From: Nitrospira sp.
GTDB lineage: Bacteria; Nitrospirota; Nitrospiria; Nitrospirales; Nitrospiraceae
Length of the DNA: 64,000 nt
Reading direction: 5' to 3'
NCBI GenBank assembly: GCA_015709715.1
Contig: CP054184.1
Location: 1,969,001-2,033,000, forward strand
Shown: in pieces, positions 41,247 to 60,391 of the stretch
Layout: every line of letters begins with the position of its first letter
Numbering within the stretch: position 1 is the first letter of the stretch
Made by a program: the position numbers and the translations under genes
Notes under the pieces: generated by a model
The model's input: only the letters and a program-made list of their open reading frames with translations
The model's database searches: none
Told to the model about the DNA's origin: nothing

Positions 41247-41369
41247 GCCCGAGTCATTACAGGGATCCCGCCCGAACTGCCCGATAAATTGACGGTCTTC
41301 GGACCCTTTGTTAGACTTCCGACAGACACACCCACGGTTCGATGCCGATCCGCGCTGCAGTCACCGAAC

Positions 41370-42311
41370 GTGAATTCGACACAATCGATCAAAGCCCTAC
41401 AGGACAATGTTGCACGAGTCATCAAGGGCAAGGCCCAGGTGATCGAACGGGCGGTCGTGTGCCTGTTGGCGCGCGGCCATCTCTTGATCGAAGACGTCCC
41501 CGGAGTGGGGAAAACGACCCTCGCCCATAGCCTTGCCCGTTCGCTCGACTGTTCCTTCAAACGCATTCAATTCACCAGCGACTTACTGCCCTCCGATATC
41601 GTCGGCATTTCGGTCTTCAACCGTCAGAAGCAGGCCTTCGAATTCATCCCCGGCCCGCTGTTTGCCAACATCGTCCTGGCCGATGAGATCAATCGCACGA
41701 CACCCAAGACGCAGAGCAGTCTCCTGGAGGCCATGAGCGAGGCCCAGATCTCGGTGGACAACCAAACCTATCCGCTTCGGCAACCGTTCATGGTCATCGC
41801 GACGCAGAACCCCGCCGAGTATCACGGGACCTATCCGCTCCCCGAATCCCAACTCGATCGATTCCTCATGCGTCTTCGCATCGGCTATCCCACCCCCGAC
41901 GAGGAAAAGAAGGTCTTGGATCGTCCGCAAGCCTTGCATCCCGCCGATGAAATCGAGCCCGTCCTCACAGCCCAACACATCCTGGATCTACAAGCCCAAA
42001 CCGAGAAGGTTGCGATGGAAGAAAGCTTGATGGACTACTTGCTCGCCATCGTCCTGGCCACTCGTCAACACAACCTGTTGTCACTCGGGGTCAGCACGAG
42101 AGGTACGCTCGCCTTGTCCAAAGCCGCGAAGGCCCTTGCCCTCGTTCGTGACCGGACCTATTGCCTTCCCGAGGACATTAAGGAATTGGCTCCGGCGGTC
42201 CTGGCTCATCGTGTCATGCCGAACCGATCCCCTGGCATGCGCACGACCGGCTTCGAGCATACGGAGCGGATCATCCAAGACATTCTCGATAGCGTTCCTG
42301 TCCCCCTATAG
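41370..42311 (+). CDS. MoxR-family AAA+ ATPase
   Basis: 313 residues from the GTG at 41370. The frame is also open from a TTG at 41289, but those 27 residues are not like the family. Walker A GVGKTT (45-50), Walker B ANIVLADEINRTTPKTQSSLLEAM, and the sensor 1 region VIATQNPAEYHGTYPLPESQLDRFLM. MoxR ATPases act as chaperones with the DUF58 and transglutaminase or VWA proteins encoded next to them, as here. Confidence 0.88.
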   Translation: MNSTQSIKALQDNVARVIKGKAQVIERAVVCLLARGHLLIEDVPGVGKTTLAHSLARSLDCSFKRIQFTSDLLPSDIVGISVFNRQKQAFEFIPGPLFANIVLADEINRTTPKTQSSLLEAMSEAQISVDNQTYPLRQPFMVIATQNPAEYHGTYPLPESQLDRFLMRLRIGYPTPDEEKKVLDRPQALHPADEIEPVLTAQHILDLQAQTEKVAMEESLMDYLLAIVLATRQHNLLSLGVSTRGTLALSKAAKALALVRDRTYCLPEDIKELAPAVLAHRVMPNRSPGMRTTGFEHTERIIQDILDSVPVPL

Positions 42312-42371
42312 AGACCTGACCACGGCTACGTCGCGCCACCCTGAATTCGTCGCGCGCTCCTCTCACCTGTC

Positions 42372-43499
42372 ATGTTGCACCGGAACCCTACATCCACTCA
42401 CCGACGTGTTCGATTGACCACTGAGGGCGCCAGATTCCTGCTCTTTACGCTGGCAGTCGGCACCGCGGCAGTGAATACAGGCAATAACCTCTTCTATCTC
42501 CTCCTAGCCATGATGCTCAGCCTGATCGTCGTATCCGGCCTCATCTCCGAATTGTGTGTGCGACGATTGGCGTTCAAGCGGCAGGCCCCGGAGTATTTCT
42601 TTGCCAACGAGCCAGGCACTGTGACACTACGCGTCACGAACCACAAAATGCGCATCCCAAGCTTCTCCTTGCACCTCCTGGAGGCCAGCGATCGCGAGCC
42701 GTACGATCATCGCCTGCGGATCCCCACCCTTGCCCCTCAGGCATCCGTCTCCATTTCATATCCGTGGCGCATCGGTCGGCGCGGCCAGTATCACCTCCGG
42801 GGGATTCAAGTCAGCACCTCCTTCCCTTTCAACCTGTTTGTGAAGCAGGCCTGGTACCCTTGCGACACCTCCATCCTGGTATGCCCACAACCCCTTCCTC
42901 TGCCTCCGATGCGTCTGGGCGCCTTGAGCAACTTGGGACACCACCATGTCGCGGCGCGGCGCGGGCAAGGCACGTCGCTCTATAACCTGCGGGAATTCCG
43001 CCCTGGTGACGATGCGCGCGCGATTCACTGGATGACCACAGCCAAAACATCGAAGCTGATGCTCAGAGAAACCGAATCGGAAGATCACCGTCAGGTCATT
43101 GTGGCCGTTTCGACCGTTGCGCCCGATGATGCCGACCCGGCGTTCGAACGCGCCCTGTCCATCGCCGCCTCACTCGTCTCCTTATTCCTCAGGGAGGGAT
43201 ACGAGGTCCACCTGCTGTTGGGTAACCAGCCGATTCATACCGCCGCAGGTCCTGACCAAAGTCTGTCTCTGTTCCATGCCTTGGCCCTCTGCGAACGGCA
43301 ACGCCCAGCCATGTGCGAGGTGATCTATCAGGCCATGGCCCACGCACTGGCCGCTTCAATGGAGGGAGTGACGATTGGGCTGACACCGTGGACGGATCCC
43401 GATGGGGCAGCAACACCCTTTTACAATCTCGATCACATGATTTCTCCGGAGAGCGACGAGGATCTGTTCAATGGCGCTGGATCAGGCATTCCGGCTTAG
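42372..43499 (+). CDS. DUF58-domain membrane protein
   Basis: 375 residues. Two membrane helices near the N-terminus (ARFLLFTLAVGTAAVNTGNNLFYLLLAMMLSLIVVSGL), a beta domain, and the DUF58 signature YNLREFRPGDDARAIHWMTTAKTSKLMLRETE. It lies between the moxR and transglutaminase genes, the usual partnership. It overlaps the next gene by 29 bases. Confidence 0.85.
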   Translation: MLHRNPTSTHRRVRLTTEGARFLLFTLAVGTAAVNTGNNLFYLLLAMMLSLIVVSGLISELCVRRLAFKRQAPEYFFANEPGTVTLRVTNHKMRIPSFSLHLLEASDREPYDHRLRIPTLAPQASVSISYPWRIGRRGQYHLRGIQVSTSFPFNLFVKQAWYPCDTSILVCPQPLPLPPMRLGALSNLGHHHVAARRGQGTSLYNLREFRPGDDARAIHWMTTAKTSKLMLRETESEDHRQVIVAVSTVAPDDADPAFERALSIAASLVSLFLREGYEVHLLLGNQPIHTAAGPDQSLSLFHALALCERQRPAMCEVIYQAMAHALAASMEGVTIGLTPWTDPDGAATPFYNLDHMISPESDEDLFNGAGSGIPA

Positions 43500-45693
43500 C
43501 TCAATCCTGCTGGCCGCCACCAGCTGTACGAACCTGGCCTTGGCGATTACCCTCCCGCCATGGCTGCTGGTCCTCGCCGGTCTGGCCTTTGCCGGCGCGC
43601 TCCTCCGACTTCATCCGAGAACCCATTCCGCCCGGCTATTATCTGCCTTGCGGTTTTCCGCACTCACGTGGAACTTCTTCCTGTTGTCGGCCTTTGCCGG
43701 ATTCTGGATAGACCTGCTCCTCATTTCACGGGACGTGTTGGCCGCCGGCATCCATTTCCTCCTGTTGCTGCTCGTGAACAAATTGTCCAATCTCGACCAT
43801 CGGCGGGACTTTCTTCATCTCTATGCCATCAGTCTCATCGCCCTCCTGGCATCGGCGGCCCTCACGACACAGATCTGGCATGCTCCGCTCTTTCTGGCCT
43901 ATCTGATGGCCGGAGTCTGGTCACTTTTGCTCTACCACCTGACGAAGGAACAGGAGGAGTGGACCGGTAACCCACCTGGGCACACTGACTCCGCACACTT
44001 ACCGCCTCCTCCGACTTCCTGCTCACGCCGATTCTTTTGGACAGCGAACGCGGTTGCCGGCCTAACGCTTCTTCTCACCCTATTATTTTTCTTTTCGATT
44101 CCCCGGCTCGGAGTCGGCCTGTTTCAGAACGACCACGAGGCGAGCCTGCGCACGACGGGTTTCTCCGATCAGGTCGATCTTGGCGTCATCGGTCCCGTCA
44201 AGCTGGATTCCAGTATCGTGATGCGAGTGGAATTACCGGACCGGACCGGCGAGGACGTGGTGCAGGCGCCGCTGTACCTCCGTGGAGTGGCTTACGATCA
44301 GTACAACGGCAAATCGTGGAGCAACACCCTCCCTCACCTCCGTCCGCTCACCGAAATCCCGCAAGGCGTATTCAGCGTTCGCTTACCCGGCACCAAGCTG
44401 CCCGCGCCGACGGGCCGCTTGAGACAAGACATCCTGCTCGAACCGCTTGACACCGCAGTCCTCTTCGGCGCTCCGTTCATAGTATCGGTCAAGGGGAACT
44501 TTCTCTCGGTGCAAGCGGATCTCATGGGATCCGTACAACTGCCGTTCCCCACGCACAGCCGCCTCCACTATACGGTCTATTCGGCGCCCACCACCCTAAT
44601 GGCGGCGGAGCAATCCCCCTCCGCCTTCGTGTACCCCGAATTCGTGCTGCGACATTATCTCCAGCTCCCGTCCATCAGTCCCAGCATTCACGAACTGGCC
44701 CGACGCATTACGCAGTCGTCCCCAAACATCGCGCAATCCATTCAGCGCATCCGAACACATCTCACGACCGGCTATCGCTACAGTCTGAACGTTCCCTCTC
44801 TACAATCCGACCATCCGCTCGAGGATTTTCTGTTCGCACGCAAAACGGGCTACTGCGAGCACTATGCAACCGCGATGGTCATTATGTTGCGCTCGGCAGG
44901 AATTCCTGCGAGGCTGGTGACCGGTTTTTTGGCCACAGAATGGAATGCCTTCGGCAGCTACTACACCGTTCGTCAGCGCGATGCGCACGCGTGGGTGGAG
45001 GTGTACTTCCCCCGTTCAGGCTGGATCACGATGGACCCCACGCCACCTGCTCCCGTACCGGACGAACGAGCCTGGTGGGAAACCGCAGGCAGTGTGGTGG
45101 ATTCAGCTCGGTTGAAGTGGGACCGCCTATTTGTCCATTACAGCGCCTACGATCAGCGCGCGGTGATCCAAGGCATTCGGGACGGTGGGGAGGCCATGCG
45201 GACCCGACTGTCGACGTCCGTCGCCGGCCTGCTGTCGACAGGGGTCACCGCGTTCACCGAATCACTCAAGGCGTTCGCCCGCGACCGCGTGGCGGAAACG
45301 GTCGTCGCGCTTCTCATCGTCCTCGTGGGCTTGACCTTCACATTGAAGTGGTGGATCAACCGAATGCCCGGAACGATCGGGAAACAAGATCCGCACTCCA
45401 GCCATCAACGCCAGGCCATCATCCTCTATACGAACATGGTCGATTGTTGTGCCCACCACGGCATCATGAGACAGGCCAGTACCACCCCCGGAGAGTTCCT
45501 TCGTCAAATTCAAGCGCAATGGGCCGAAGCCTGGCCTTCCGCTGATGCCCTCACGCAGATCTACACACGCGCCAGGTTTGGCCGTGCCCCCTTGACTCAA
45601 GACGACCTCTCAACCGCCCGCCGCTTGTTGCATACTCTACAAGCACAGCGGCACCCAGCCGCCCATGCAGCCTCAGACAGCCACCGTCGCTAA
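43471..45693 (+). CDS. TgpA-like membrane transglutaminase-fold protein
   Basis: 740 residues. Multiple membrane helices at the N-terminus (DUF3488-like), a periplasmic transglutaminase domain with the triad in RKTGYCEHYATAM (Cys), DAHAWVEVYF (His) and ITMDPTP (Asp), then a further helix near 610 (VALLIVLVGLTFTL) and a C-terminal cytoplasmic DUF4129-like tail. The enzyme class is inferred; the substrate is unknown. It ends the moxR-DUF58-tgpA operon. Confidence 0.88.
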   Translation: MALDQAFRLSSILLAATSCTNLALAITLPPWLLVLAGLAFAGALLRLHPRTHSARLLSALRFSALTWNFFLLSAFAGFWIDLLLISRDVLAAGIHFLLLLLVNKLSNLDHRRDFLHLYAISLIALLASAALTTQIWHAPLFLAYLMAGVWSLLLYHLTKEQEEWTGNPPGHTDSAHLPPPPTSCSRRFFWTANAVAGLTLLLTLLFFFSIPRLGVGLFQNDHEASLRTTGFSDQVDLGVIGPVKLDSSIVMRVELPDRTGEDVVQAPLYLRGVAYDQYNGKSWSNTLPHLRPLTEIPQGVFSVRLPGTKLPAPTGRLRQDILLEPLDTAVLFGAPFIVSVKGNFLSVQADLMGSVQLPFPTHSRLHYTVYSAPTTLMAAEQSPSAFVYPEFVLRHYLQLPSISPSIHELARRITQSSPNIAQSIQRIRTHLTTGYRYSLNVPSLQSDHPLEDFLFARKTGYCEHYATAMVIMLRSAGIPARLVTGFLATEWNAFGSYYTVRQRDAHAWVEVYFPRSGWITMDPTPPAPVPDERAWWETAGSVVDSARLKWDRLFVHYSAYDQRAVIQGIRDGGEAMRTRLSTSVAGLLSTGVTAFTESLKAFARDRVAETVVALLIVLVGLTFTLKWWINRMPGTIGKQDPHSSHQRQAIILYTNMVDCCAHHGIMRQASTTPGEFLRQIQAQWAEAWPSADALTQIYTRARFGRAPLTQDDLSTARRLLHTLQAQRHPAAHAASDSHRR

Positions 45694-47549: not shown

Positions 47550-47879
47550 TCAAGGGAGCGTCTCGCAATACTGCTCCAACTGAAGTGAAAAGACCAGAAA
47601 CTCGTCTCCGCCCTGGCGACGGTACTCTTCTTTCGACACACCTTCGCGGCGCTCTCTTCTGAATTGTTCACAAGCGCGCCGCTCTGCCCGTTTAATTGAC
47701 GGCTGCAGCTGAGCCTGCGCTTCAAGAGAACGGGCGGCCATACTTTCCTGCATTCGCTTCAAGGCGCGAAAGTGGTCGTACAGTTTTAGTTCATCCACTT
47801 CGACACGTGTCGATTCGCCCTCAGTCGAGTGAGCCACAGCCGGTAACATCAAGAGTATGCATAATCCCAGGATCATCAT
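47550..47879 (-). CDS. Small secreted protein of unknown function
   Basis: 109 residues: signal peptide MMILGLCILLMLPAVAHS, then a strongly charged helical domain (HFRALKRMQESMAARSLEAQAQL..., RAERRACEQFRRERREGVSKEEYRRQG). Two cysteines remain in the mature part. The ATG pair is preceded by AAGGGC. It lies 12 bases after the DUF362 gene on the same strand and is probably the last gene of the Tad transcript. Confidence 0.6.
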   Translation of the reverse strand: MMILGLCILLMLPAVAHSTEGESTRVEVDELKLYDHFRALKRMQESMAARSLEAQAQLQPSIKRAERRACEQFRRERREGVSKEEYRRQGGDEFLVFSLQLEQYCETLP

Positions 47880-47891
47880 GACGAGCCCTTG

Positions 47892-48917
47892 TTAGATGAG
47901 TCGTATCCCCCGCTGAGCCGGAATCGTCTCGATCAAGGTGAAATTCGTTCGAACAGAGGCAATAGCCTCCCCACGTTGTTCAATCGCGCTTTCAGCAATC
48001 GGCCCCAGCCAGTTATCAGCTCGTTCCAGGTAAGACACTCGATAGGGATCAATGCCCATGATACGACAACACGTTGCATCGACTGCAGCAGGATTTCGTC
48101 CCATCACGAGAACGGCAGCCTTCTTTGGATCCCCTGTGATGGGCCCATCCCCTTCCATTCCCACGATGCCATCGACAATGGCAAACTGCGGCTTCAACGT
48201 CGCATTGATATCCAAAATCGAGTTCTCTATCCCGGCATGATGCAACACATTCTTGGGCCACCCGTAGTAGATGCCAGGCATCACACCAAAGAGATTCTTC
48301 ATCGCTAGCGTAGCACCAGCCCAATGGTGTGTTTTCATCTTGGCGACGGAGACAATCCAATCCACTTCTTGGAAAAGAGATGGAAAGGTCAACGCCCGCA
48401 GTGAAGATTGGCGACCGGCATTCGGCAACTCATAGCCCGTGATGTAATTCAAGTCGTGAAACGCAATACGATCTTCCGTGAGCACATCTGCCAATCCGGA
48501 CTCTTCATAGACCGCCAACGTGTCGCGTCGATGGCCAGGGCCTTCGGCCACCATTACCGTGGTCGCGCCCAGCCGCAGAAAAGCCTCGATAGCTCCACGC
48601 AACACCAGAGGATGCGTATTGATGTGGGGAGCTGTTGAGGCGGTTTCGACAAGGTTTGGCTTCAGGAGAATGCGCTTCCCTCTCAACTCATCCGCAGTAA
48701 CACCCAACTCTCGAATACCTCTCGTAATGACCTCGGCGATATCCAGCTGGTAATGCGCGGCTCTGGCCACAAACACGTGCGCTCGTTGCGGCAAGCGGAA
48801 ATATCGTCTGGGGACGATGAGCGAACCAGCTCCCAACACCAGGCCAACTCCAGCCGCCATGAGGATATCACGACGTGTGAGCCCCCACTCTGATCTCGCT
48901 TTTGCATCTTTCGACAC
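47892..48917 (-). CDS. DUF362-domain protein with Tat-type signal
   Basis: 341 residues from the GTG at 48917, which has a GAGGG ribosome site 5 bases upstream and avoids overlap with the preceding gene. The N-terminus LTRRDILMAAGVGLVLGAG is a Tat-type signal. The DUF362 core includes KRILLKPNLVETASTAPHINTHPLVLRGAIEAFLRLGA, VSVAKMKTHHWAGATLAMKNLFG and IVDGIVGMEGDGPITGDPK. The biochemical role is unknown. It follows the toroid gene by 17 bases. Confidence 0.75.
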   Translation of the reverse strand: MSKDAKARSEWGLTRRDILMAAGVGLVLGAGSLIVPRRYFRLPQRAHVFVARAAHYQLDIAEVITRGIRELGVTADELRGKRILLKPNLVETASTAPHINTHPLVLRGAIEAFLRLGATTVMVAEGPGHRRDTLAVYEESGLADVLTEDRIAFHDLNYITGYELPNAGRQSSLRALTFPSLFQEVDWIVSVAKMKTHHWAGATLAMKNLFGVMPGIYYGWPKNVLHHAGIENSILDINATLKPQFAIVDGIVGMEGDGPITGDPKKAAVLVMGRNPAAVDATCCRIMGIDPYRVSYLERADNWLGPIAESAIEQRGEAIASVRTNFTLIETIPAQRGIRLI

Positions 48918-48934
48918 GAAATCCCTCAGTGTGT

Positions 48935-49852
48935 CTAGACCGGCGGTATAGAATCCGAATATGCCAACAGGGGGTGACGTACCGTTGACTCTCCGGCTAA
49001 GGCGCCCAAGAAAAGAAGGCACAACGCCGACGTTTCGTATTCCCCATAGCGTGGCTGCCTCGCCAGGCAGAGATCAACCAGAGCGATGCCGTTCGACGGG
49101 TACTGCGCCCAAGCTGCAAGGCCGAGCAAGGCCCATCCCAGTGATATGGGTGTGCGCAATCGAGCCACTTCGCCCTGAAGATACTCGAGGCTCCGTGACA
49201 CAACCGCCTGCTCCACTTGGCCCGCCAAGCTGGCCAAAGCAGATCCTGTACCCTCTGCATTCGGATGGAGTTCCTTGCCAAATATGAGCGTATTCCCCGA
49301 GTTCCATCCCCCATGAGGCAACTGACGGTCAATCAGCATTCGAACAGCCTCCTTTGCGCGCTCGTGCTGGGCATAGCCTGTCGCCCGCAGTGCCATCACG
49401 CCCATCGCAGTAGGCTCAACCCATGAATGTGTCTCCTCGATCCATGGCCATCCCTTCAGGGACGTATCATGCGCCCACGGGGCATCAGGCTTCGGAGAGA
49501 AGTGGTTACCAGTGGTGCCCAAGAGGAATTGGACGGCGCGACCTTGAGCGATTTCACTTGATGGAGAATTCTGCCAGGCAAGAATAGCAAGGGGGGTTGG
49601 CCAGTATGAGGCCGGATGCCGCCGACTCACCCAGACACGTCCGTCGGCGCCCTGCTCCAGTTTCAGACGCGCACGACCATGCTCGAGTGATTCATGGGGC
49701 TCCCCGGAGGCAGCCAGGGACAATATCGCCAGCGCCGTGGCGTCAACTCGAAACACTCCGTTGGGCCGATCCGCCAGTCCGCCATCCAACAGAGTCCGTT
49801 TTGAAAGAACCTCTCGAAGTAGGCGCTTCACCGCAACCCCCAACCACAGCAC
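48935..49852 (-). CDS. Alpha/alpha-toroid protein (prenyltransferase/squalene-oxidase repeat)
   Basis: 305 residues made of QW-like helical repeats: GVFRVDATALAILSLAASG, PLAILAWQNSPSSE, HSWVEPTAMGVMALRATG, QLPHGGWNSGN and ISLGWALLGLAAWA. The GGW motif is characteristic of the terpene-cyclase and prenyltransferase toroid. No catalytic DxDD or DCTAE is visible, so enzyme activity is uncertain. It starts 8 bases after the tadC stop and probably belongs to the Tad operon. A GTG at 49831 is an alternative start. Confidence 0.7.
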   Translation of the reverse strand: MLWLGVAVKRLLREVLSKRTLLDGGLADRPNGVFRVDATALAILSLAASGEPHESLEHGRARLKLEQGADGRVWVSRRHPASYWPTPLAILAWQNSPSSEIAQGRAVQFLLGTTGNHFSPKPDAPWAHDTSLKGWPWIEETHSWVEPTAMGVMALRATGYAQHERAKEAVRMLIDRQLPHGGWNSGNTLIFGKELHPNAEGTGSALASLAGQVEQAVVSRSLEYLQGEVARLRTPISLGWALLGLAAWAQYPSNGIALVDLCLARQPRYGEYETSALCLLFLGALAGESTVRHPLLAYSDSIPPV

Positions 49853-49860
49853 TTGCTGGG

Positions 49861-50817
49861 CTAATGCCCAGCAAGTGCGGGGAACAAGACCCTGACCATT
49901 CTGATGACGGCAGGACCAATGGTCACCACAAACATGCTCGGGAAGATGAAGAAAATCAGAGGCAACAAAAGCTTCACGGGCAATTTAGCCGCTAATTCCT
50001 CCGCCTTGAGCCTGCGCGTCGCCCTCATGGAGTCCGCGTGAACCCGAAGCGCTTGGCCGATGCTTGTCCCGAAGCGGTCTGTCTGCACAAGGAGCGCTAC
50101 AAGATTTTTTACTTCTTCAAGATCGGTACGGTAAGCAAGATTTCTGAGTGCCTCCTGTCGTTGCACACCAGTCCTCAACTCCAAGGCCAGCACATTCAGC
50201 TCCTCGCCCAAGACCGGATGCGTTTGCTTGACGTCTTCTCCGACGCGGGCAATCGCTTGATCCAACCCCAATCCCGCCTCCACGCATACCACCATCAAGT
50301 CTAACGCGTCAGGAATCGCCCGTAGCAATGCGTCCTGCCGATGAGCAATGGCCTGGGAGAGCCATATCGATGGAGCATAATAGGCACAGGTTGCAGCAAG
50401 CAGATAGAAAATAATCAAGTTAGTGGCCGTCGGGAATCCAAGCGCCTTGGCAGGAATCATCGCAACCATCGCCACCGCGAGCACAGCTAACAGCAACTTC
50501 GTACCCATGTAGAAGACCGGCGCTTTCGCTCCCCGATACCCGGCGGTTATCACACGACGCCTCATAGCCCGCATGTCATCCACGCTGGACGGCTGATTAA
50601 ACTTCGCGAACCATTCCAGCAACGCACGCACATGAGCGTGAACCTGCTCGGCAAATCCACCCGACACCCCACCGTCTGCCTCAACCGTCGTGTGCCCTTC
50701 CACTCGACGCCGCCAGGTCTGCAGCATCTCACGCGAATTGAGATACAGAAATAACGCCGCACCAGCCAACAGAATCACCAGGAAGGTAGACAATGCCGCG
50801 AATACAGGCAATTCCAT
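49861..50817 (-). CDS. tadC: Flp pilus assembly protein TadC
   Basis: 318 residues. Type II secretion F-like domain with membrane helices near 10-30, 100-150 and 290-310, and AIPDALDLMVVCVEAGLGLDQAIARVGEDV, a family signature. It forms the inner-membrane platform with TadB. Ten bases separate it from tadB. Confidence 0.92.
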   Translation of the reverse strand: MELPVFAALSTFLVILLAGAALFLYLNSREMLQTWRRRVEGHTTVEADGGVSGGFAEQVHAHVRALLEWFAKFNQPSSVDDMRAMRRRVITAGYRGAKAPVFYMGTKLLLAVLAVAMVAMIPAKALGFPTATNLIIFYLLAATCAYYAPSIWLSQAIAHRQDALLRAIPDALDLMVVCVEAGLGLDQAIARVGEDVKQTHPVLGEELNVLALELRTGVQRQEALRNLAYRTDLEEVKNLVALLVQTDRFGTSIGQALRVHADSMRATRRLKAEELAAKLPVKLLLPLIFFIFPSMFVVTIGPAVIRMVRVLFPALAGH

Positions 50818-50827
50818 GGGTTGCTCC

Positions 50828-51793
50828 TCAGACCTTGATCACCACCATCCGTTTCATCACAACCGCCCCTAGTACCATCATGATGCTGCCGGCCGTCGTA
50901 AGGGTTTGCCCCATAGGGTCTGAGAACAAGAGCCCCACATAGTCTGGGTTCAGTTTGTACAACAACAGACCGATCACAATCGGAAGCCCCAGAAGAATCA
51001 TGGCAGAGAACCGCCCCTCAGCAGACAACGCTCGAACCTTTAGTTGAAGTTCAAACCGTTTCCGTATCAACCCGGCCAGAGAGTCGATAATTTCAGCCAA
51101 GTTGCCACCGGTTTCCCGCTGCACCATAACCGAAGTGACAAAAAACCGCACATCGACGCTGTCAATCCGCTCGGTCATATTGGAAAGGGCTTGCGGAAGT
51201 GCCACCCCCATCGACACTTCACTGAACACATGCCGAAACTCTCGGCCAATAGGATCGGCCGCTTCATCCCCGACGATTTTCAATCCCACAGAAAACGCAT
51301 GCCCTGCTCGTAAGGCACGTGAAACCAATTCGAGCGCCTCCGGAAGCTGACGCTCGATCTCTGCCATCCTACGATTCTTCAACCAATAGAGATATGCCGC
51401 AGGACTCGAACCCAGTATGACCGCGCATAAAACAGCCGCCATGTTTGTCTGGTTTGTGATCAGCGCCAGCAACATCCCTCCAATGGCAAGAAGAGGAGAA
51501 GCCAGCACAAAGACTCCCAGCGGAAGTCGACAGTCCGCCCGCCGATGAAGCACCCGCAACGGCTGCAACTGCTTGGCTTTCAGAAGCAAGTCGTTCAACC
51601 ATGGAATATTGCTAAGAGACTCTTTTCGAACGATTTCGAATTGTTTCATTTCAACCGGCGCTGTCCAGGCTTGAAGCCGTTCGACTGCGCGATCACTGCC
51701 GCGAGGCATGAGGATCCGGTATGCCGAGTTACAGGCGAACATCAACAGCAGAATCGTCCCCAAAATTCCGAGGGCAATGAGTGCGTTCAGCAT
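50828..51793 (-). CDS. tadB: Flp pilus assembly protein TadB
   Basis: 321 residues. Membrane helices at the N-terminus ([21 protein letters not shown]), the T2SSF domain with [26 protein letters not shown] and [25 protein letters not shown], and two C-terminal helices. It partners TadC in the pilus platform. Its start overlaps the cpaF end by 7 bases. Confidence 0.93.
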
Positions 51794-53100
51794 TCGTACA
51801 CCTTTGATGGGTCAAAGAGGTCAGGCGACAACGCCACACCTTTGGCGGCTAACCGCTCGGCAAACTTGGGGCGCACACCAGTCGCCTTGAATCGACCTTT
51901 TACTTTGTGATTCCCATCCACACCAGTCTGCTGAAAGACAAAGATCTCCTGAAGGGTAATCAGGTCGCCCTCCATACCCACAACTTCCTGCAAACTGATC
52001 AATTTTCTCGTGCCGTCGGACAACCGAGCGATTTGGATGATGACATCCAGCGCGGATGAGACGTAATGCCGCATCGCCTTCGTTCCGAGGTTGAGCCCGG
52101 CCATGGACACGAGAGTCTCGATCCTCGTTAACGCGTCGCGGGCCGAATTCGCATGCACCGTCGTGAGGGATCCATCGTGCCCGGTGTTCATCGCTTGAAG
52201 CATGTCCAAGCTCTCCGCACCACGCACCTCACCCAAGATAATACGATCGGGACGCATTCGGAGGGCATTCTTGACGAGCTCACGCTGCGCAATTTCCCCT
52301 TTGCCCTCAATATTGGCCGGACGTGTTTCTAAGCGCACCACATGATCCTGGCGCAATTGCAACTCGGCGGCATCTTCGATCGTGACGATCCGCTCGTCAT
52401 TAGGGATGAAGCCAGACAACACATTCAGTAAGGTTGTCTTCCCAGACCCCGTTCCACCCGATATCAGAATATTCAATCTGGCCTGCACAATGGCCTTCAT
52501 GAGTTCTCCGATCTCCGGCGTCAGCGATCGCTTTTCAACCAGGTGATACAGCTGGAGCGGATCTTTGCTGAACTTTCTAATCGAAAGAGAGGGCCCGTCG
52601 ATGGCCAGGGGTGGGATGATTGCATTGACGCGTGACCCATCAGCGAGTCTGGCATCTACCATCGGTACCGACTCGTCGATGCGACGTCCGACGCGCGAGA
52701 CAATTTTCTCGATGATCTTTTTAAGATGCGCATCATCTTTAAACTGGATCGGCGTCAACTCCAATCGACCGAGTCGTTCGACGAACACCTGTTTGTGTCC
52801 ATTGACCAGAATATCGTTGACGGTATGATCCGCCAACAACGGTTCCAGGGGCCCCAGCCCGAGCACCTCGTGAAGGATATCCTGCGTGACCTGGGCCCGC
52901 TCCCGCTGATTGAGAGGCACCGACTCTTGCTGCAAAAGCTGCTCGATGAGCTTGGTCAGCTGCTCCACGACGGCCGCGTGCGACATCGCGCTGATAGCGT
53001 TCAAATCCAACATCTCAATGACGCGCTGATGAAGACGATCCTTCAACTCATGATGTTGAAACCCGGCTTCCGCACTGTTCATGGATTTCATCGTCAACAT
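51787..53100 (-). CDS. cpaF: Tad pilus ATPase CpaF/TadA
   Basis: 437 residues. Walker [10 protein letters not shown] (215-223), Walker [17 protein letters not shown], and the conserved [14 protein letters not shown]. An N-terminal helical domain carries the [18 protein letters not shown] segment. It hydrolyses ATP to drive pilin assembly and possibly retraction. The start is an ATG with a GAAGGAAGG ribosome site at slightly long spacing. Confidence 0.94.
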
Positions 53101-53151: not shown

Positions 53152-54375
53152 TCAGACAGCGGATGGTTTGCGCCCAGGTTCCAAGCCCAAGGTCGAGAAA
53201 CAACGGCCTAAGAATGAGGGCTTCTTCTCTGCCCCATTTCGAGGATCAGGCCGTCCGGCGTGCGAGGTGTCACCGATGAGAGACTCACTCCCTCGCAAAT
53301 ACCACTGACCTATGGACGACCGCGATGCCATAATGCTCAGAGGCTTGCCATGGTTGATTGCTTCGCTGGCTGTCCCATAATCATTCGGGATCAATCCAGC
53401 TATTGACATCCCCAAAAGGTCTTCGGTCTCACCCAAGAACTCCTTCTGGTCACTGACATAACGATTAACTACCACCCCCATCTTTCCCGGTGGGTAGCTC
53501 GCTGTGCGCAACACTTCTAGCAGCCGCTTGGTTCGGCGAATGGCGGGCAATGACAGTGTGGTCACGACGATGATCTGATCCGAACAATCCAATGCCTCCT
53601 TGACCGCCGGATCTAGCACATGTCCGCAATCGACGAGCACATGTCGATGCATGGCACGCAAGATACCGATCACCCGCATCGTGCTGCCAGGCATATGCAG
53701 CATTTCCTCAAAGCCTTCATAGCCCGAGGGGAGTAGCTGGAGACCGGACCCATGCGAGACCAACGTACTCTTGACGATTGTCTCATCCAACCTGGAAATA
53801 TCTTTTGAGAGATGTTTCAGCCCTTGCGTCGTGCGCAAATCCAAAAACATACCGAGATCTCCCCCGAGCAGATCGAGATCCATCAACGCGACAGGCTCCT
53901 GTTGGTTCATCTGCTGCACCGACATTGCCAGGTTTGTGGCCACAGTGCTCGTACCTACGCCCCCTCTCGCACCGATCACCGCGACCACCCTTCCGGACTG
54001 CCGATGCACATCGGACACTCGACAGGCGAAGCGCTCCTCAAAGCGTGTCAGTGCCGATTCAACCTCTTGGCGAGTCAAAGGCTGTGGCAAGAATTCCTTC
54101 ACCCCAACCCGGAAGGCCTCCAAAAGAACTTGTGGATCGGTCCGCGAGGCCGTTAGAAACACTTCAAGATTCGGCGATACGTTCAACAATTCACGAATAT
54201 GGGCGAATGTCTGTTGCGGGCGGAGTTCGTCCAATTCAAGCAGCAGCATGTCGGCAGCACCTGTGCACTGCCCCTTCGACACCAGGTAGTCGCGACGACG
54301 CGAGACAATCTCTTCAAACGTTTGCCGCGACGCGGCAGTTCGACAGTCGATCGACACTGCAATCAGTCGAGCCAT
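53152..54375 (-). CDS. cpaE: Tad pilus localisation ATPase CpaE/TadZ
   Basis: 407 residues. N-terminal receiver-like domain (ADMLLLELDELRP..., VFLTASRTDPQVLLEAFRVGVKEFLPQPL) without the usual phospho-Asp pattern, then a ParA/MinD ATPase domain with GARGGVGTSTVATNLA. TadZ proteins position the Tad machinery at the pole. It lies 30 bases after tadG. Confidence 0.88.
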   Translation of the reverse strand: MARLIAVSIDCRTAASRQTFEEIVSRRRDYLVSKGQCTGAADMLLLELDELRPQQTFAHIRELLNVSPNLEVFLTASRTDPQVLLEAFRVGVKEFLPQPLTRQEVESALTRFEERFACRVSDVHRQSGRVVAVIGARGGVGTSTVATNLAMSVQQMNQQEPVALMDLDLLGGDLGMFLDLRTTQGLKHLSKDISRLDETIVKSTLVSHGSGLQLLPSGYEGFEEMLHMPGSTMRVIGILRAMHRHVLVDCGHVLDPAVKEALDCSDQIIVVTTLSLPAIRRTKRLLEVLRTASYPPGKMGVVVNRYVSDQKEFLGETEDLLGMSIAGLIPNDYGTASEAINHGKPLSIMASRSSIGQWYLRGSESLIGDTSHAGRPDPRNGAEKKPSFLGRCFSTLGLEPGRKPSAV

Positions 54376-54405: not shown

Positions 54406-55515
54406 CTATTCAACCAGACCAGGTAACGTGGTGAAGACCCCGAACGACGGACCTCCCCCCACTCCCCCCCCCTGGAAGAGGGGACACGAGACATTCCCAG
54501 TAATCAGATGATTCGGCGGCCCCTGCACATTCGTGATGCGAATATTGGCATACCCGACGATCGGAATCGCGCCGCTCGGGCTACAGTCACCCCCTTGATA
54601 CACCGGCACCAAGGCGTCCCAATAACCTGTTCCGGCACTCCGAAGAATGAATAGGTTAGTGAGTGCATTCCACGTTGGGTTACTCAATGTTCCGTTCGTA
54701 AATTCTATGTGTGTCACGCCTGCCGTCGTGGGCGGCACCTGGTAACTTCCATCGATCATGCCATTGATGATAGTTCTCATCGCCATGTCATTGGAGGGAG
54801 TTTGCAGAAATGTCGTAAACCCGGCGCACGACTGTGGTGTGCCATTGCTGGGATACAATTGAATACTGTCCCCACAACCGAACTGGCTGAAGAACAACTC
54901 GGAAATAGCCACCGGCAGATCCAACGCACCCAACGGGGTGGAGCCGATGGCCGCTAACTCTGCCGTTGCGGCTGCACTCACATTCACACTCGACATACCG
55001 ACGACGTTGGCCAGGAACGTGCTGATCGGACCATTCGCGCTGCCGTCTCGGTGCGTGACGACTCTGACAGATCGAGGTTGGTTGGCCGTCGGCGTAAAAG
55101 TCCGCGTCGCGGAATTCCATAGCCCGATCTGCACGTCGGCCGCGTTCACAGATACACTGACCGCCGCCGCCTGATTCAACGCACTCGTCGCCTGAGCCGC
55201 AGCCACAATGGCAGCCTGATCTCCTCCCGTCAGCGTATAGTTCGCCATTTGATCGGGCGTCATTCCTTCATAGGCGATGCCCAACGCCCTGGCACCAGCC
55301 AATGCAGCAGCGTCTGCGGCATTTTGAAGCTCGTTTCGGGCCACGAGTGCATGACCAATATCGATAGCGGCAGCTCCCATCGCCAGCAACACTGTGAGCG
55401 TAACCGCTACCATGACTGCCGCCGCTCCACGCGAATTCTTGAGCGGCGCCATGATCTGGTTTGCGTACAGGCTGAGCATGGAGACATTCCTTTGTTGATG
55501 CAGTGTCTTATTCAT
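54406..55515 (-). CDS. tadG: Flp pilus-associated TadG-like pseudopilin
   Basis: 369 residues. The N-terminal membrane helix SRGAAAVMVAVTLTVLLAMGAAAIDIGHALVARNELQNAADAAALAGARAL is the TadG/Tad_N signature. The rest is a large periplasmic domain rich in Gly, Thr and Asn with a few Cys. A run of nine G (coding strand) lies near the 3' end, at 54464-54472. The start overlaps the tadE end by 8 bases. Confidence 0.85.
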   Translation of the reverse strand: MNKTLHQQRNVSMLSLYANQIMAPLKNSRGAAAVMVAVTLTVLLAMGAAAIDIGHALVARNELQNAADAAALAGARALGIAYEGMTPDQMANYTLTGGDQAAIVAAAQATSALNQAAAVSVSVNAADVQIGLWNSATRTFTPTANQPRSVRVVTHRDGSANGPISTFLANVVGMSSVNVSAAATAELAAIGSTPLGALDLPVAISELFFSQFGCGDSIQLYPSNGTPQSCAGFTTFLQTPSNDMAMRTIINGMIDGSYQVPPTTAGVTHIEFTNGTLSNPTWNALTNLFILRSAGTGYWDALVPVYQGGDCSPSGAIPIVGYANIRITNVQGPPNHLITGNVSCPLFQGGGVGGGPSFGVFTTLPGLVE

Positions 55516-55927
55516 GACGCATGGTCGTTGCCATCGTGATCGGCAAGGGGCTTGGCAAACCCAATAGGGTGGGGATATAGGGGATCAACCAGGAATAGTT
55601 ATAGGTTGCCGTGACCGTCAACGTCGCAGGGTTCGCGCCACCGGCCCCTGACACAGTAATGGTGACATCTGCCACGTTAATCCCTGTCCCGGCCAGGTAA
55701 TTTGTCGTGATCGTCGTGATATCGCCTGATGTCGGCTTGGGAGAAACCTGCACGATCCCCGCGCGTGCCCCCTCCCGGCTAGCGTTGGTCACGACCTCAC
55801 GTCCATACATGATCATGCCGAATTCGATAATGCTGAAGAGGATTGTCAGGAGCACTGGCAGTAGGAGGGCAAATTCCGCTGCCACTACGCCACGCTCATC
55901 CAGCTTTTGCATGAAATCCATCCTCAT
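55508..55927 (-). CDS. tadE: TadE-like minor pseudopilin
   Basis: 139 residues. DERGVVAAEFALLLPVLLTILFSIIEFGMIMYGREVVTNASREGARAGI is the TadE domain: a Glu in the pilin-type AEFALLLP motif, a hydrophobic helix and the conserved REGAR. It follows the lipoprotein gene by 6 bases. Confidence 0.88.
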   Translation of the reverse strand: MRMDFMQKLDERGVVAAEFALLLPVLLTILFSIIEFGMIMYGREVVTNASREGARAGIVQVSPKPTSGDITTITTNYLAGTGINVADVTITVSGAGGANPATLTVTATYNYSWLIPYIPTLLGLPSPLPITMATTMRHE

Positions 55928-55933
55928 CGTGGG

Positions 55934-56209
55934 CTACTTGGTTTGCACCCCGCTTGCCACGGCCGACCGAGTGAACTCCGCATCCGGCTTCTCAAAATTC
56001 TTCCGATACGCTTCCATCGCCGTGGCGCTCACCTTTCCATCCTGGCCCTCGACCGGATCGAGTTGCTCGCCGGCAGCGGGGTTCAAAACTTGCTGCGCTC
56101 GCATGTTTTGATAGGCCACACCCCAATTCGGACTGATCGTCGTGGGAGCGCAAGCTCCGACCGATACACCAACCACCATCCCCACCACCGTTCTGGTCAT
56201 CATGTTCAT
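55934..56209 (-). CDS. Small lipoprotein of the Tad locus
   Basis: 91 residues from the ATG at 56209 (ribosome site AAGGAG). The signal ends ...VGVSVGAC, so Cys20 would be lipidated. The mature part has PAAGEQLDPVEGQDGKVSATAMEAYRKNFEKP, resembling short lipoproteins encoded next to Tad secretins, which often act as pilotins or partners (CpaD/RcpB-like position). The family itself is not recognised. It sits between the secretin and tadE genes. Confidence 0.65.
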   Translation of the reverse strand: MNMMTRTVVGMVVGVSVGACAPTTISPNWGVAYQNMRAQQVLNPAAGEQLDPVEGQDGKVSATAMEAYRKNFEKPDAEFTRSAVASGVQTK

Positions 56210-56249
56210 TGAGATCTCCTTCCTCCAATCCATGTCATGCACGACTGAA

Positions 56250-57719
56250 TTATGGGACGATGTGTCCGAATTGTCCCTCCATGGCAGCCGCCCGTCCCAC
56301 GCGGTTAGAAAGCATTTCAGCGGCCGGCGATCGCTGCCCAGCCTTGCCACCAAATCCGCCCTTTTCAGAAAACCCCAACAGGTAGAACTCAAAGTCGTTT
56401 GGCTCCACATAGTAATCGGTCGGCAGCGTCTGTGCCGTCAGATCCAATGGTTTCACGAGGTGCGGGGTTACAATGATCACGAGTTCTGTTTCATTTTTCT
56501 GAAACGAACTGCTGCGGAACAATGCACCCAGAATAGGAATTTCACCCAGGAAGGGAACCTTCTTCACCGACTCACGAACATTGTCTCGCATCAGCCCACC
56601 GATGGCGAAACTTTGTCCGTCCGCCAGTTCAATGGTGGTTGCGGCCCGTCTCGTCGTAATAGCCGGCACAAGAAATCCTTGCAGGCGTAACGCATTCTGG
56701 AAGTCCAGCTCCGAAACCTCTGGCGCCACATTCAAACTGATATGCTTGCTATTCATGATGTTGGGGGTAAACACCAAGCCCACCCCGAATTTCTTGAATT
56801 GAACCGTCACCAATCCAAAGGCCTGAGGAACAGGAATGGGAAACTCGCCGCCGGCTAGAAAAGCCGCCTCCTGCCCATTCAAGGCGACGAGAGTGGGCTT
56901 CGCCAATACCTTGATGAGGTTTTCTTCCTTGAGTGCATCAACCAGCCCAGTCCATGAAATGCTGCCCGTATCGAACCCAAATACTCCTTGGATCGCCGAG
57001 GTCACCGCAGTGGTGACGGTAGCCGCGCCACCTCCTACGCCGGGATTTGTGAAGTTTGTCAGAGTCGTTAATCCGCCAAGGACCGAGACGCCGAACTCGT
57101 TCGGACCGATAGCACTGAAATTGACTCCCAGCCGCTTGATCAACTCTCGATTCATTTCAGCCACACGGACTTCAAGCATGACCTGTTGCACGCCACCGAC
57201 CTGCAATGCATTTACGACCTTTTTAGGGGCATACGCTTCCGCGATACTCATGGCCCTACCCAGGTTATTGGCATTCGAGGCCGTGCCGGAGAGGGTAATG
57301 TGATCGTGGCTAGAGGTGACCAGAATGCCCTTTTCTTCCGGCAACGCTTGGTGAAGGTTTTCCTTCAAGCGGGTCAAATCTGGACCAATGACCACGTCAT
57401 AGACACCCATCATCTTGTCGTTCTCGTTCCAAAGCGTCAGGTTTGTCACCCCTGTTGCCTTGCCCGTCACATAGATCTGAGTCGGAGACAATACCACGGT
57501 GTCCGCTACCTCCGGGTTCGCCAGGGAGGCCCGCTTGATTGCCGTAGGCAAGTCCAGTACCTTGGACTTGCCTAACGTCAACTCCAATTTATGAATCTCG
57601 CGCTGGTCCATCGAACCGCCCACTGGAGTGGCCACCACAGGTTCCTCAGCATATGTTGTCGGCGCCCCACACATCCCCAACAGCAATCCCACAGCTATGA
57701 CCGTGCCACGTTGTATCAT
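56250..57719 (-). CDS. cpaC: Tad pilus secretin CpaC/RcpA
   Basis: 489 residues from the ATG at 57719 (ribosome site GGAGGAC). Signal peptide, then the pilus-assembly N domain (LTLGKSKVLDLPTAIKRASLANPEVADTVVLSPTQIYVTGKATGVTNLTLW), a BON-like segment (HITLSGTASNANNLGRAMSIAEAYAPKKVVNAL), and a secretin domain (QVMLEVRVAEMNRELIKRLGVNFS..., VPFLGEIPILGALFRSSSFQKNETELVIIVTPHLV). It forms the outer-membrane pore. Confidence 0.92.
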   Translation of the reverse strand: MIQRGTVIAVGLLLGMCGAPTTYAEEPVVATPVGGSMDQREIHKLELTLGKSKVLDLPTAIKRASLANPEVADTVVLSPTQIYVTGKATGVTNLTLWNENDKMMGVYDVVIGPDLTRLKENLHQALPEEKGILVTSSHDHITLSGTASNANNLGRAMSIAEAYAPKKVVNALQVGGVQQVMLEVRVAEMNRELIKRLGVNFSAIGPNEFGVSVLGGLTTLTNFTNPGVGGGAATVTTAVTSAIQGVFGFDTGSISWTGLVDALKEENLIKVLAKPTLVALNGQEAAFLAGGEFPIPVPQAFGLVTVQFKKFGVGLVFTPNIMNSKHISLNVAPEVSELDFQNALRLQGFLVPAITTRRAATTIELADGQSFAIGGLMRDNVRESVKKVPFLGEIPILGALFRSSSFQKNETELVIIVTPHLVKPLDLTAQTLPTDYYVEPNDFEFYLLGFSEKGGFGGKAGQRSPAAEMLSNRVGRAAAMEGQFGHIVP

Positions 57720-57774
57720 TGAGATGGTCCTCCAGAATCGTTTCCACACTCAGTGCTCACTGCATTGATCACCT

Positions 57775-58401
57775 TCAGAACTTAACCGCATTCACGGCCG
57801 TCCCTTTAATCACTTCCACGGTAACCGTCTGCACGTCCGGTGCAGGGTTGCCGATGGGCTCTGGATATACCTTCAGAAAGTTGAGGACACGCTTTGGAGC
57901 GTACGCTTCGGCCACAGCCAATACTTGACTAAGTCGTGCTTCACTCGATACCGTGCCGGAAATCGCGACGTGGTCATGTGTTCCCTTCAGTCGAAGGTTA
58001 GTCTCATCAGGCAACAGCTCTCCGAGCTGTTGCGTCAATCGGGCCAGATCGATTCCGACGTCCAAGTCGAACACCGCGAGCACCTGGTCGTCCTTGCCCC
58101 ACAACGTCAGATTGGTAGTGCCATACCCTTTACCAGTGACATAGATCTGCTTCGGACTAAGGACGATGGCATCGGCAATTTGAGGATCGGCCAAGGAAGC
58201 GCGCTTGATCGCCACAGGCATATCCACCACCGTCGATTTCCCAACAACCAGCGCCACTTGCTGTGTATCCGGAACCTTCGCCGATTGATATATGCCTTCT
58301 GTCGCTGCTATGGCCACCTCCCCTGCCACCACAAGCCCGCCGATGACCAGCATCCTTACGAACCGAATGGCACCCGCATTATGCGAATTCGTCATCTTCA
58401 T
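57775..58401 (-). CDS. Secretin-N-domain protein (truncated CpaC paralogue) with CpaB-like tail
   Basis: 208 residues from the ATG at 58401 (ribosome site GGAGGCACGGTG). After a signal peptide it repeats the N-terminal half of the neighbouring secretin: LVVGKSTVVDMPVAIKRASLADPQIADAIVLSPKQIYVTGKGYGTTNLTLW, then the BON-like segment (HVAISGTVSSEARLSQVLAVAEAYAPKRVLNFL). No secretin pore domain follows. It ends TVEVIKGTAVNAVKF, matching the end of CpaB (IEVIKGDVRKELKF). It could be a ring or chaperone subunit that docks secretin and CpaB. Confidence 0.75.
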   Translation of the reverse strand: MKMTNSHNAGAIRFVRMLVIGGLVVAGEVAIAATEGIYQSAKVPDTQQVALVVGKSTVVDMPVAIKRASLADPQIADAIVLSPKQIYVTGKGYGTTNLTLWGKDDQVLAVFDLDVGIDLARLTQQLGELLPDETNLRLKGTHDHVAISGTVSSEARLSQVLAVAEAYAPKRVLNFLKVYPEPIGNPAPDVQTVTVEVIKGTAVNAVKF

Positions 58402-58420
58402 CACCGTGCCTCCATAAATC

Positions 58421-59251
58421 CTAAAACTTGAGTTCCTTTCGGACATCTCCCTTAATGACTTCTATTCGAATACTCCCATCGTCTTCGACTTTCGGTTTGG
58501 CGGACTGTTTCGGACGGAAGGAACTTAAGAGGGTCCCGACATTGGCGCCCTTCGTCAGTACATGCTCTTTGTTAAGCGGATTCCTCAGAGCCAGCCGTAG
58601 CCGTCCCTGGGTCGAAGCAAGCGCCAACTTTTCAGCTTCTTCCACATCAACTTCGACCGTAATGACCTGCACCTGCTTGGGCTCTTCGTCCTTGCCCTTT
58701 CGCTCCATCTGCGTTCCCGCGGCCAGCACCTTCACATTCTCCAAAATCATCTTTGAAATTGAATTCGCCTGCTTCCCACCGGGCGGCTCAATGGTCACCA
58801 TGACATCGACATGATCACCCGGCTTGATGAACCCGGCCACCCCGATAACATCATCAACCTTCACCGACATCGCCCGCTTGTGAGGATCAGTGACTGCCGC
58901 CACCCCTCCGCTCGTTGTGCCAATCGGCGCGAGTTTTGACTCCAGAACCAACTCGTTTCGTTTAAGGTCCACCAAAAGGACGCGATCCCTAATGACCTCT
59001 GCACTCGTAAAGTGTCCTTCCGGTACCGCGCCCGGTACAAATTCCATCAACTGCGTCATTTCTGGCGTCAGCTTGGTGCCCCACGACAAATCTGCATTGG
59101 CGACCAGCACGTGAACATTTGTGGTTATCGGAAGAGGCGCGGCCATTAAGCGGTTTTTTTCGTTCTGCAACCAGGTAAACACCAAGCCGCTGGTGATTAA
59201 TCCAAGCACCATCGCCATACCAAAAAATACCAAGGGCCGATACCGCTTCAT
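58421..59251 (-). CDS. cpaB: Flp pilus assembly protein CpaB/RcpC
   Basis: 276 residues. N-terminal membrane helix (FFGMAMVLGLITSGLVFTWL), SAF-like domain (VLVANADLSWGTKLTPEMTQLMEFV, VLLVDLKRNELVLESKL) and RcpC-type continuation (VDDVIGVAGFIKPGDHVDVMVTIE). It is thought to bind peptidoglycan and guide the secretin. It is the first gene after the prepilin peptidase gap, 101 bases, which holds a weak sigma-54-like site. Confidence 0.9.
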   Translation of the reverse strand: MKRYRPLVFFGMAMVLGLITSGLVFTWLQNEKNRLMAAPLPITTNVHVLVANADLSWGTKLTPEMTQLMEFVPGAVPEGHFTSAEVIRDRVLLVDLKRNELVLESKLAPIGTTSGGVAAVTDPHKRAMSVKVDDVIGVAGFIKPGDHVDVMVTIEPPGGKQANSISKMILENVKVLAAGTQMERKGKDEEPKQVQVITVEVDVEEAEKLALASTQGRLRLALRNPLNKEHVLTKGANVGTLLSSFRPKQSAKPKVEDDGSIRIEVIKGDVRKELKF

Positions 59252-59321
59252 CGTGCTCTCTCCTCTTCAAGCCGTAACATCTACGCCCATTCTTGCCTGG
59301 ACACCCACACGCAACCCTGCA

Positions 59322-59337
59322 TGCTTGAGTCTAGCCA
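59322..59337 (-). promoter_or_regulatory. cpaB: Possible sigma-54 promoter upstream of cpaB
   Basis: On the minus strand the site reads TGGCTAGACTCAAGCA. The GGC of the -24 and GCA of the -12 are correctly spaced (GG-N10-GC), but the -12 lacks TT. It lies about 70 bases upstream of the cpaB ATG. Weaker than the site before flp. Confidence 0.3.
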
Positions 59338-59352
59338 AATTCTCGGATAGGC

Positions 59353-59877
59353 CTACCCACCAAAAGGGCGAAACCCTAGGTGAAAAAGTAGGGTGCCGCC
59401 AGCAATCGCCAGCCCATACCGCAGGCGGAAGGGAAGCATGAGATCCAATGTCCACGCCTTGCCTCCGACCGAGACGGCTCCCTGCATGGCAGAAACAAGT
59501 TTTCGGCTCGCACCGACAACTCCCCACTGGTAGTACATGGCTCCCAAGGCATAAACGCCGCCAACCATTAGGGCCAGGACTCCGGAAACGACAGCACCGT
59601 ACGGGCCGATAAAGGCGCCGACGGCAGCCATCAGCTTCACATCACCCGCCCCGATGCTTCCGGATACATACAAGACCATGAAGAGAGCCCAACCTGCCCC
59701 AAGTCCTGTCAGGCTGAACATTAGCCCTTGTCCCCCACTAAACCAGGTATGCACGATCAGCGCGAATACCATCGCGGGGAAAGTCAAGGAATTCGGGATC
59801 CGAGAAGAGCGCAGGTCGGTCCACATGGCCGTGACCAGGACTCCTGTAAGTGCTGCGGCTACGATTTCCGCCATCAT
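59353..59877 (-). CDS. cpaA: Prepilin peptidase CpaA/TadV (A24 family)
   Basis: 174 residues starting MMAEIVAAALTGV (ATG at 59877). Polytopic; the two catalytic Asp lie in WTDLRSSRIPN and GAGDVKLMAAVGAF, the A24A peptidase motifs. It lacks the N-methylase domain, as usual for Tad peptidases. It cleaves the Flp pilin leader encoded next to it. Confidence 0.9.
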   Translation of the reverse strand: MMAEIVAAALTGVLVTAMWTDLRSSRIPNSLTFPAMVFALIVHTWFSGGQGLMFSLTGLGAGWALFMVLYVSGSIGAGDVKLMAAVGAFIGPYGAVVSGVLALMVGGVYALGAMYYQWGVVGASRKLVSAMQGAVSVGGKAWTLDLMLPFRLRYGLAIAGGTLLFHLGFRPFGG

Positions 59878-60013
59878 AGGATTCGCCCTTCCTGTACCAT
59901 CTGATTCATTAAGGAGAAGGGTGCCTTGGCCCGACATTCACCCCAAATCCTGTGCATCGCCCTTCAGCATCGGCCTCACATTGGTGTCCTTTTCCGAGAT
60001 GGAGCACCAACAC

Positions 60014-60041
60014 GGTTGGCCCGGCCATCGCCGGGCCAACC
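60014..60041 (-). terminator. Strong hairpin after the Flp pilin gene
   Basis: GGTTGGCCCGGC (60014-60025) and GCCGGGCCAACC (60030-60041) form a 12-bp perfect stem with a 4-base loop (CATC), 14 bases after the pilin stop codon. There is no T run. It lies between flp and cpaA, so it may reduce read-through or stabilise the pilin mRNA. Confidence 0.6.
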
Positions 60042-60055
60042 CTAGACTCTCCCAA

Positions 60056-60220
60056 TTAGCTAATAGCAGCAGTCGCGTTGTTCAGTGCGGTAATAATGGC
60101 GCCGCCAAGACCCGTCACCGCCGCGGCCATCAATACCGTAATCAATCCAACTAAGAGCGCATATTCCGCAGCCGACGCACCCTCTTCTTCCATCACAAAC
60201 CGACGAATCGCATTCATCAT
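60056..60220 (-). CDS. flp: Flp-type pilin
   Basis: 54 residues: MMNAIRRFVMEEEGASAAEYALLVGLITVLMAAAVTGLGG..., with the Flp cleavage site G|ASAAEY and the 20-residue hydrophobic stem. After processing by CpaA the mature pilin forms the pilus fibre. It is the only major pilin gene in the window. The upstream region carries a sigma-54 promoter candidate. Confidence 0.93.
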   Translation of the reverse strand: MMNAIRRFVMEEEGASAAEYALLVGLITVLMAAAVTGLGGAIITALNNATAAIS

Positions 60221-60391
60221 GGCTGTTTTTCCTTTCCTACGTGTTCCATGAATAGAAATGGTTCTATGGTCTTCTGTTCGTTCTGCGGCTCCGACTCTTC
60301 CGGCACGACCCATCGAACCAATCGGGAATTCCTCACCTCCTTCACCCGGGTGGTCGCCGCCAAATCTCGTCACCGCATGGACACAGGACAT

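Follow-up and report, generated by a model that had tools for sequence, protein, structure and literature searches.

A toroid protein and a Tat-signal DUF362 protein with a predicted LarA-like fold form a two-gene unit linked to the Tad pilus locus in Nitrospira and other bacteria

The LarA family comprises nickel-pincer nucleotide (NPN) racemases and epimerases (PF09861; structures 5huq, 6d6z, and 9eid). In LarA, K184 binds the NPN cofactor, H200 is a nickel ligand, and R75 contacts phosphate (PMC11770544), and H108 and H174 serve as an acid/base pair (PMC12611868). DUF362 proteins and the LarA family belong to a common Pfam clan, CL0471 (PMC11770544). About 15% of surveyed genomes make NPN without LarA, which implies that further NPN-binding proteins exist (PMC11796402). 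Two other described systems are close to the locus reported here: squalene-hopene cyclase, with the other class II terpene cyclases, and the accessory genes of Tad/Flp pili. Searching titles and abstracts of open-access journal papers, we found no paper that places DUF362 in a Tad context, and searches for Tad together with squalene, nickel, Nitrospira, or Planctomycetes returned no such module.

Here, we describe a pair of genes in a Tad locus of Nitrospira sp. The window, that is, the whole stretch of 64,000 nucleotides analyzed (contig CP054184.1, positions 1,969,001 to 2,033,000), comes from a genome assembled as one contig of 4.16 Mb. Given the matches of tadB and tadC to T2SSF, of tadA to T2SSE, and of CpaB to TIGR03177 in profile searches, the upstream genes were identified as a Tad locus (Table 1). 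As the sequence-only reading had described, tadC is followed on the same minus strand by genes for an alpha/alpha-toroid protein, a Tat-signal DUF362 protein, and a small secreted helical protein, with gaps of 8, 17, and 12 bases, respectively. The toroid open reading frame starts with GTG, and its real start may be a TTG or GTG a few codons further in. For DUF362, the longest open reading frame extends to 49022, overlapping the toroid gene; we placed the start at the GTG at 48917 because homologues favor it. A sequence scan of the interval from tadC to the small gene found no promoter-like and no minus-strand terminator-like sites, which is weak evidence, since the sole promoter match of the scan lies downstream and counts fall under those of shuffled controls.

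Table 1. Coordinates of the Tad locus and of the three genes that follow it, numbered within the window
Feature	Coordinates	Strand	Basis or remarks
Small secreted helical protein, 109 aa	47550..47879	-	Invariant C70 and C105; Tad neighbor outside the toroid-DUF362 unit
DUF362 (PF04015) protein, 341 aa	47892..48917	-	Twin-arginine signal (R15-R16); predicted LarA N-terminal-domain fold
Alpha/alpha-toroid protein, 305 aa	48935..49852	-	No signal peptide; squalene-hopene-cyclase-like predicted fold minus its catalytic motif
tadC (T2SSF)	49861..50817	-	Pfam
tadB (T2SSF)	50828..51793	-	Pfam
tadA/cpaF ATPase (T2SSE)	51787..53100	-	Pfam
tadZ/cpaE-like	53152..54375	-	
Remaining Tad locus: tadG/E-like, lipoprotein, secretin CpaC, secretin-N paralogue, CpaB, TadV, Flp	54406..60223	-	

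Two further features of the surroundings were observed. A secretin-N-like protein, seemingly a shortened CpaC paralogue, is encoded between cpaB and cpaC (57775-58446) and is kept in relatives. Genes for MoxR, DUF58, and a transglutaminase (TgpA) lie close to the Tad locus in the window (41289-45693), and such genes also adjoin the Tad locus of genome G075 (L051:15832-19500).

The arrangement was conserved among relatives. Among 118 genomes of the same family, nine others carried a strong toroid match, and in all nine of these Nitrospiraceae the toroid gene directly followed tadC; the conserved neighborhood that the sequence-only reading had proposed to look for was thus found. The order tadB-tadC-toroid-DUF362-small gene was retained in 8/8 of the other Nitrospiraceae genomes with a complete locus and, in the ninth, up to the contig end. 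DUF362 was the most conserved of the three genes, with 78 to 84% identity to the window protein in these relatives versus 49 to 70% for the toroid. A wider scan of named genomes yielded 109 toroid relatives, and the best 80 of the 109 were analyzed as loci. Most of these 80 loci come from metagenome-assembled genomes. They are spread over several phyla: Nitrospirota, Desulfobacterota, and Planctomycetota account for the bulk of them, and Myxococcales, Polyangiaceae, Verrucomicrobia, and Bacteroidales each appear as the label of one record. DUF362 was the next gene on the same strand in 78/80, the remaining two loci stopping at a contig edge; toroid and DUF362 were separated by 20 bp or less in 65 of the 78 and overlapped in 38. 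We conclude with high confidence that the toroid and DUF362 genes form one two-gene unit. Two of the records, L099 (JAOZQY010000156, labelled Bacteroidales) and L100 (JAQIBP010000041, labelled Deltaproteobacteria), have a near-identical DUF362 N terminus and gene order, so one of the bin labels may be wrong.

The pair's link to the Tad pilus locus is likewise well supported. At least two core Tad genes lay within 10 kb of the toroid in 50 of the best 80 loci, across several phyla, and clustering of the surrounding genes showed Tad genes to be the sole widely recurring neighbors; no other partner, biosynthesis genes included, was widespread beside the pair. The layout itself varied: the pair can follow tadC, diverge from flp/tadV, precede the Tad locus, or, in four planctomycete records (L126, L134, L138, and L140), sit between tadZ and tadA. 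For 32 further loci, most of which lacked Tad genes nearby, the genomes were checked, and TadA was detected in 28. In a sample of 295 Nitrospirota genomes, with TadA counted at E ≤ 1e-100, 34 were TadA positive and 16 toroid positive; all 16 toroid carriers fell within the 34 (Fisher p = 2e-17, uncorrected for phylogeny). The question of whether the pair occurs without Tad was answered in the same sample, with the toroid in 0/261 Tad-negative genomes. Sequence distances of TadA, DUF362, and the toroid correlated across 37 loci (r = 0.84 to 0.90), to which common species descent contributes.

The toroid was missing from 18 of the 34 Tad-positive Nitrospirota genomes. In addition, three toroid-DUF362 copies (L173, L175, and L182 in genomes G227, G274, and G299) have no Tad gene within 20 kb, with Tad encoded elsewhere in the genome; G227 and G274 each carry an additional copy that is Tad linked. 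The pair is therefore neither required for keeping Tad nor strictly bound to it. Set beside the Tad/Flp locus and its accessory genes, the pair is alike in being encoded in the locus, on the same strand, and co-inherited with it; it differs in that it occurs in about half of Tad-positive Nitrospirota, is dispensable in two relatives, and resembles no Tad component.

In these two relatives, G099 and G105, a related Tad locus (TadC 71% and 69% identical, respectively) and the small gene are retained without the toroid and DUF362. In the G099 scar, the toroid start abuts the last 24 codons of DUF362; G105 retains short pieces of the middle of the toroid and of a different DUF362 region. Because neither scar could have given rise to the other, the pair was deleted jointly, twice independently. 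From these joint deletions it follows that the toroid and DUF362 are one unit, that Tad survives without them, and that the small gene goes with Tad. Two cysteines of the small protein, C70 and C105, are invariant, and the protein has no Pfam match; among the toroid loci scanned, its gene was seen in none but close Nitrospira-type loci, one of which (L073:11781-12782) carries it in two tandem copies after DUF362. The earlier view that the three genes are not Tad core components is borne out by the toroid's presence in 16/34 Tad-positive Nitrospirota and by the retention of Tad in G099 and G105. Its suggestion of an accessory module stands for the toroid and DUF362; a three-gene module was rejected, given that the small gene behaves apart, being kept where the pair was deleted and confined to close Nitrospira-type loci.

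The same data bear on whether the pair merely hitch-hikes with Tad and works in an unrelated periplasmic metabolism. Second copies distant from Tad, and the dispensability of the pair where Tad persists, would fit such a passenger. However, a passenger would not be expected to recur next to Tad in different phyla and in varied arrangements, one of which places it between tadZ and tadA, or to be restricted to Tad carriers in Nitrospirota, and we regard hitch-hiking as improbable.

To the DUF362 protein, Pfam assigned PF04015 over domain positions 1 to 200 of 200 (E = 4.5e-48; 164 bits versus a cut-off of 24). The twin arginines R15 and R16 were present in 65/65 homologues, ahead of a stretch that is hydrophobic by hydropathy, and a few homologues have lipobox-like motifs. 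With moderate confidence, these sequence features suggest that DUF362 is exported. Maturation of redox proteins, one of the roles put forward earlier, is unsupported: the DUF362 type in the window lacks a conserved cysteine cluster in the 65-sequence alignment, and a role in Fe-S or ferredoxin chemistry was rejected on this ground.

The fold of DUF362 was assessed from an AlphaFold2 model (pLDDT 89.6). All 15 Foldseek matches at E ≤ 0.001 were LarA-like, and the model aligned to LarA with Z scores of 14.7 to 17.2 over 211 to 220 residues at 2.9 to 3.5 Å, versus 5.8 for the next unrelated fold. Assignment of the LarA N-terminal-domain fold to the modeled protein is thus well supported. The model aligns chiefly to the N-terminal region of LarA (roughly residues 34 to 300), with most alignments ending at LarA residues 294 to 301; most of the LarA C-terminal domain appears to be absent, and a length of 341 aa leaves little room for it. 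At the sequence level, PF04015 was the sole Pfam match, with none to Lar_N (PF09861); hhalign runs against four LarA sequences, local and global, gave no usable alignment and no sequence homology; and a PDB sequence search returned no relative. DUF362 therefore shares with LarA the N-terminal-domain fold but differs from it in lacking profile-level sequence similarity and, apparently, most of the C-terminal domain, and in having a Tat-type export signal and a pilus linkage.

Residue correspondences were sought by ungapped comparison of the DUF362 profile with LarA. Over all offsets against Lactiplantibacillus plantarum LarA, the best 24-mer placed H174 on H197 and K184 on K207 without gaps, scoring 33.2 against 20.1 ± 4.0 for shuffled sequences (maximum, 32.2). 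With a Nitrospira LarA, the H174/K184 region and the strand before H108 gave the top two windows, near null level. LarA H108 was paired by motif with H129, which follows the same type of strand, allowing a one-residue insertion; H200 lies at a three-residue offset from H226, and R75 has no clear partner. Conservation of the DUF362 residues was nearly complete (K207 and H226 in 65/65 homologues; H197 and H129 in 64/65). As the profile comparison was empty, we treat this residue mapping as a hypothesis. A second DUF362 protein in the same Nitrospira genome (L001; C1:3976719-3980312), 27% identical, has a Tat-like SRRELF start and directly follows a rhodanese-like gene; it lacks an H129 equivalent and retains the KTH...K and WH motifs.

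The Nitrospira genome appears equipped to supply NPN. LarC adjoins a LarB-like open reading frame, the latter identified by eye (L166; C1:1845417-1846547 and flank), and LarE scored 317 bits against a cut-off of 150. A profile search detected no Lar_N protein, hence no LarA, placing this genome in the same situation as the roughly 15% noted above. LarC was present in 175/180 DUF362-positive versus 70/115 other Nitrospirota genomes (odds ratio, 22.5; 295 genomes, uncorrected for phylogeny). Since LarC is common in the phylum (245/295 genomes), its presence in any one genome is weak evidence, and for the same reason its detection in 43/44 pair-carrying genomes of several phyla is uninformative alone. 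Five DUF362-positive genomes lack LarC; three are only 75 to 81% complete, and two (G125 and G203) are highly complete. The co-occurrence supports NPN dependence and is not proof of it, because LarC is common and lineage effects remain. Taken with the fold and the conserved residues, these data lead us to propose, with moderate confidence, that DUF362 carries an NPN cofactor.

An exported LarA-fold protein could instead lack NPN, bind another ligand (a metal or nucleotide), and serve the pilus base structurally or as a sensor, with the toroid as its chaperone. The missing sequence-level tie to LarA, the apparent absence of most of the C-terminal domain, and the two highly complete genomes without LarC are compatible with this alternative, but invariance of the lysine and histidine set expected for NPN and the strong co-occurrence with LarC argue against it. 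We consider it unlikely.

The toroid protein gave a single, sub-threshold Pfam match, to the squalene-hopene cyclase C-terminal domain (7.4e-5), and has no signal peptide. Its model (pLDDT 95.1) is closest in fold to squalene-hopene cyclase (Z = 26.3), with other toroids, many of them glycan active, close behind. Related repeat motifs add to the likeness to class II terpene cyclases. In contrast to squalene-hopene cyclase, the Tad-linked protein is a single toroid of about 300 aa, and DxDD, the catalytic motif by which class II cyclases are recognized, was found in 0/68 homologues. In the alignment of the same 68 sequences, no column exceeded 50% cysteine, so the zinc-binding cysteine of prenyltransferases is absent. 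Terpene cyclase and protein prenyltransferase chemistries were rejected on these two grounds, and the lipid modification offered by the sequence-only reading is left without support. The toroid's conserved polar and aromatic residues form a dense set (H128, D129, W135, W137, H142, W144, E146, R176, N184, and N187), suggestive of a working pocket or binding face.

This residue set, together with the nearest fold and the many glycan-active toroids close to it, could also mean that the toroid is itself a terpene- or glycan-acting enzyme whose lipid or sugar product is processed by periplasmic DUF362 and attached to the pilus. Such a role is countered by the missing DxDD motif and conserved cysteine and by the lack of any biosynthesis gene widely recurring beside the pair; we judge it unlikely.

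With confidence that falls a little short of even, we favor the hypothesis that the toroid and DUF362 constitute a Tad accessory module in which an exported, probably NPN-dependent enzyme, matured with the help of the toroid, has a periplasmic role connected with the pilus. The hypothesis builds directly on the linkage, co-inheritance, and co-loss of the pair, the Tat-type signal, the LarA fold, and the conserved histidines and lysine. DUF362 would fold in the cytoplasm and probably take up an NPN-type cofactor there, with Lys207 as the putative tether and His129, His197/198, and His226 providing nickel or catalytic contacts. The Tat system would then export the folded protein, which would become membrane anchored in the periplasm, perhaps as a lipoprotein in some species. 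There, it may carry out LarA-like hydride or proton chemistry on a pilus-connected substrate, either small or protein bound; this chemistry is an inference, and our confidence in the substrate is low. The toroid would remain cytoplasmic and most likely serve DUF362 before export, in maturation, proofreading, or substrate or cofactor handling, a role that we likewise propose with low confidence. Modification of the pilus by the module, raised in the sequence-only reading, is possible.

More broadly, and more tentatively, DUF362 proteins might be NPN clients in genomes that encode LarB, LarC, and LarE without LarA, with the Tad-linked branch being a nickel enzyme that is exported and, aided by a dedicated cytoplasmic toroid, modifies the pilus or the periplasm around it. 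Because the Nitrospira genome has LarC, LarE, and a LarB-like protein without LarA, and a DUF362 protein with the predicted LarA fold and a putatively matching lysine and histidine, the question of NPN clients can be tested on one protein. The pair may account for where a rare nickel cofactor is put to use in some bacteria, and it points to an undescribed enzymatic accessory, conserved across phyla, of a very widespread adhesion pilus.
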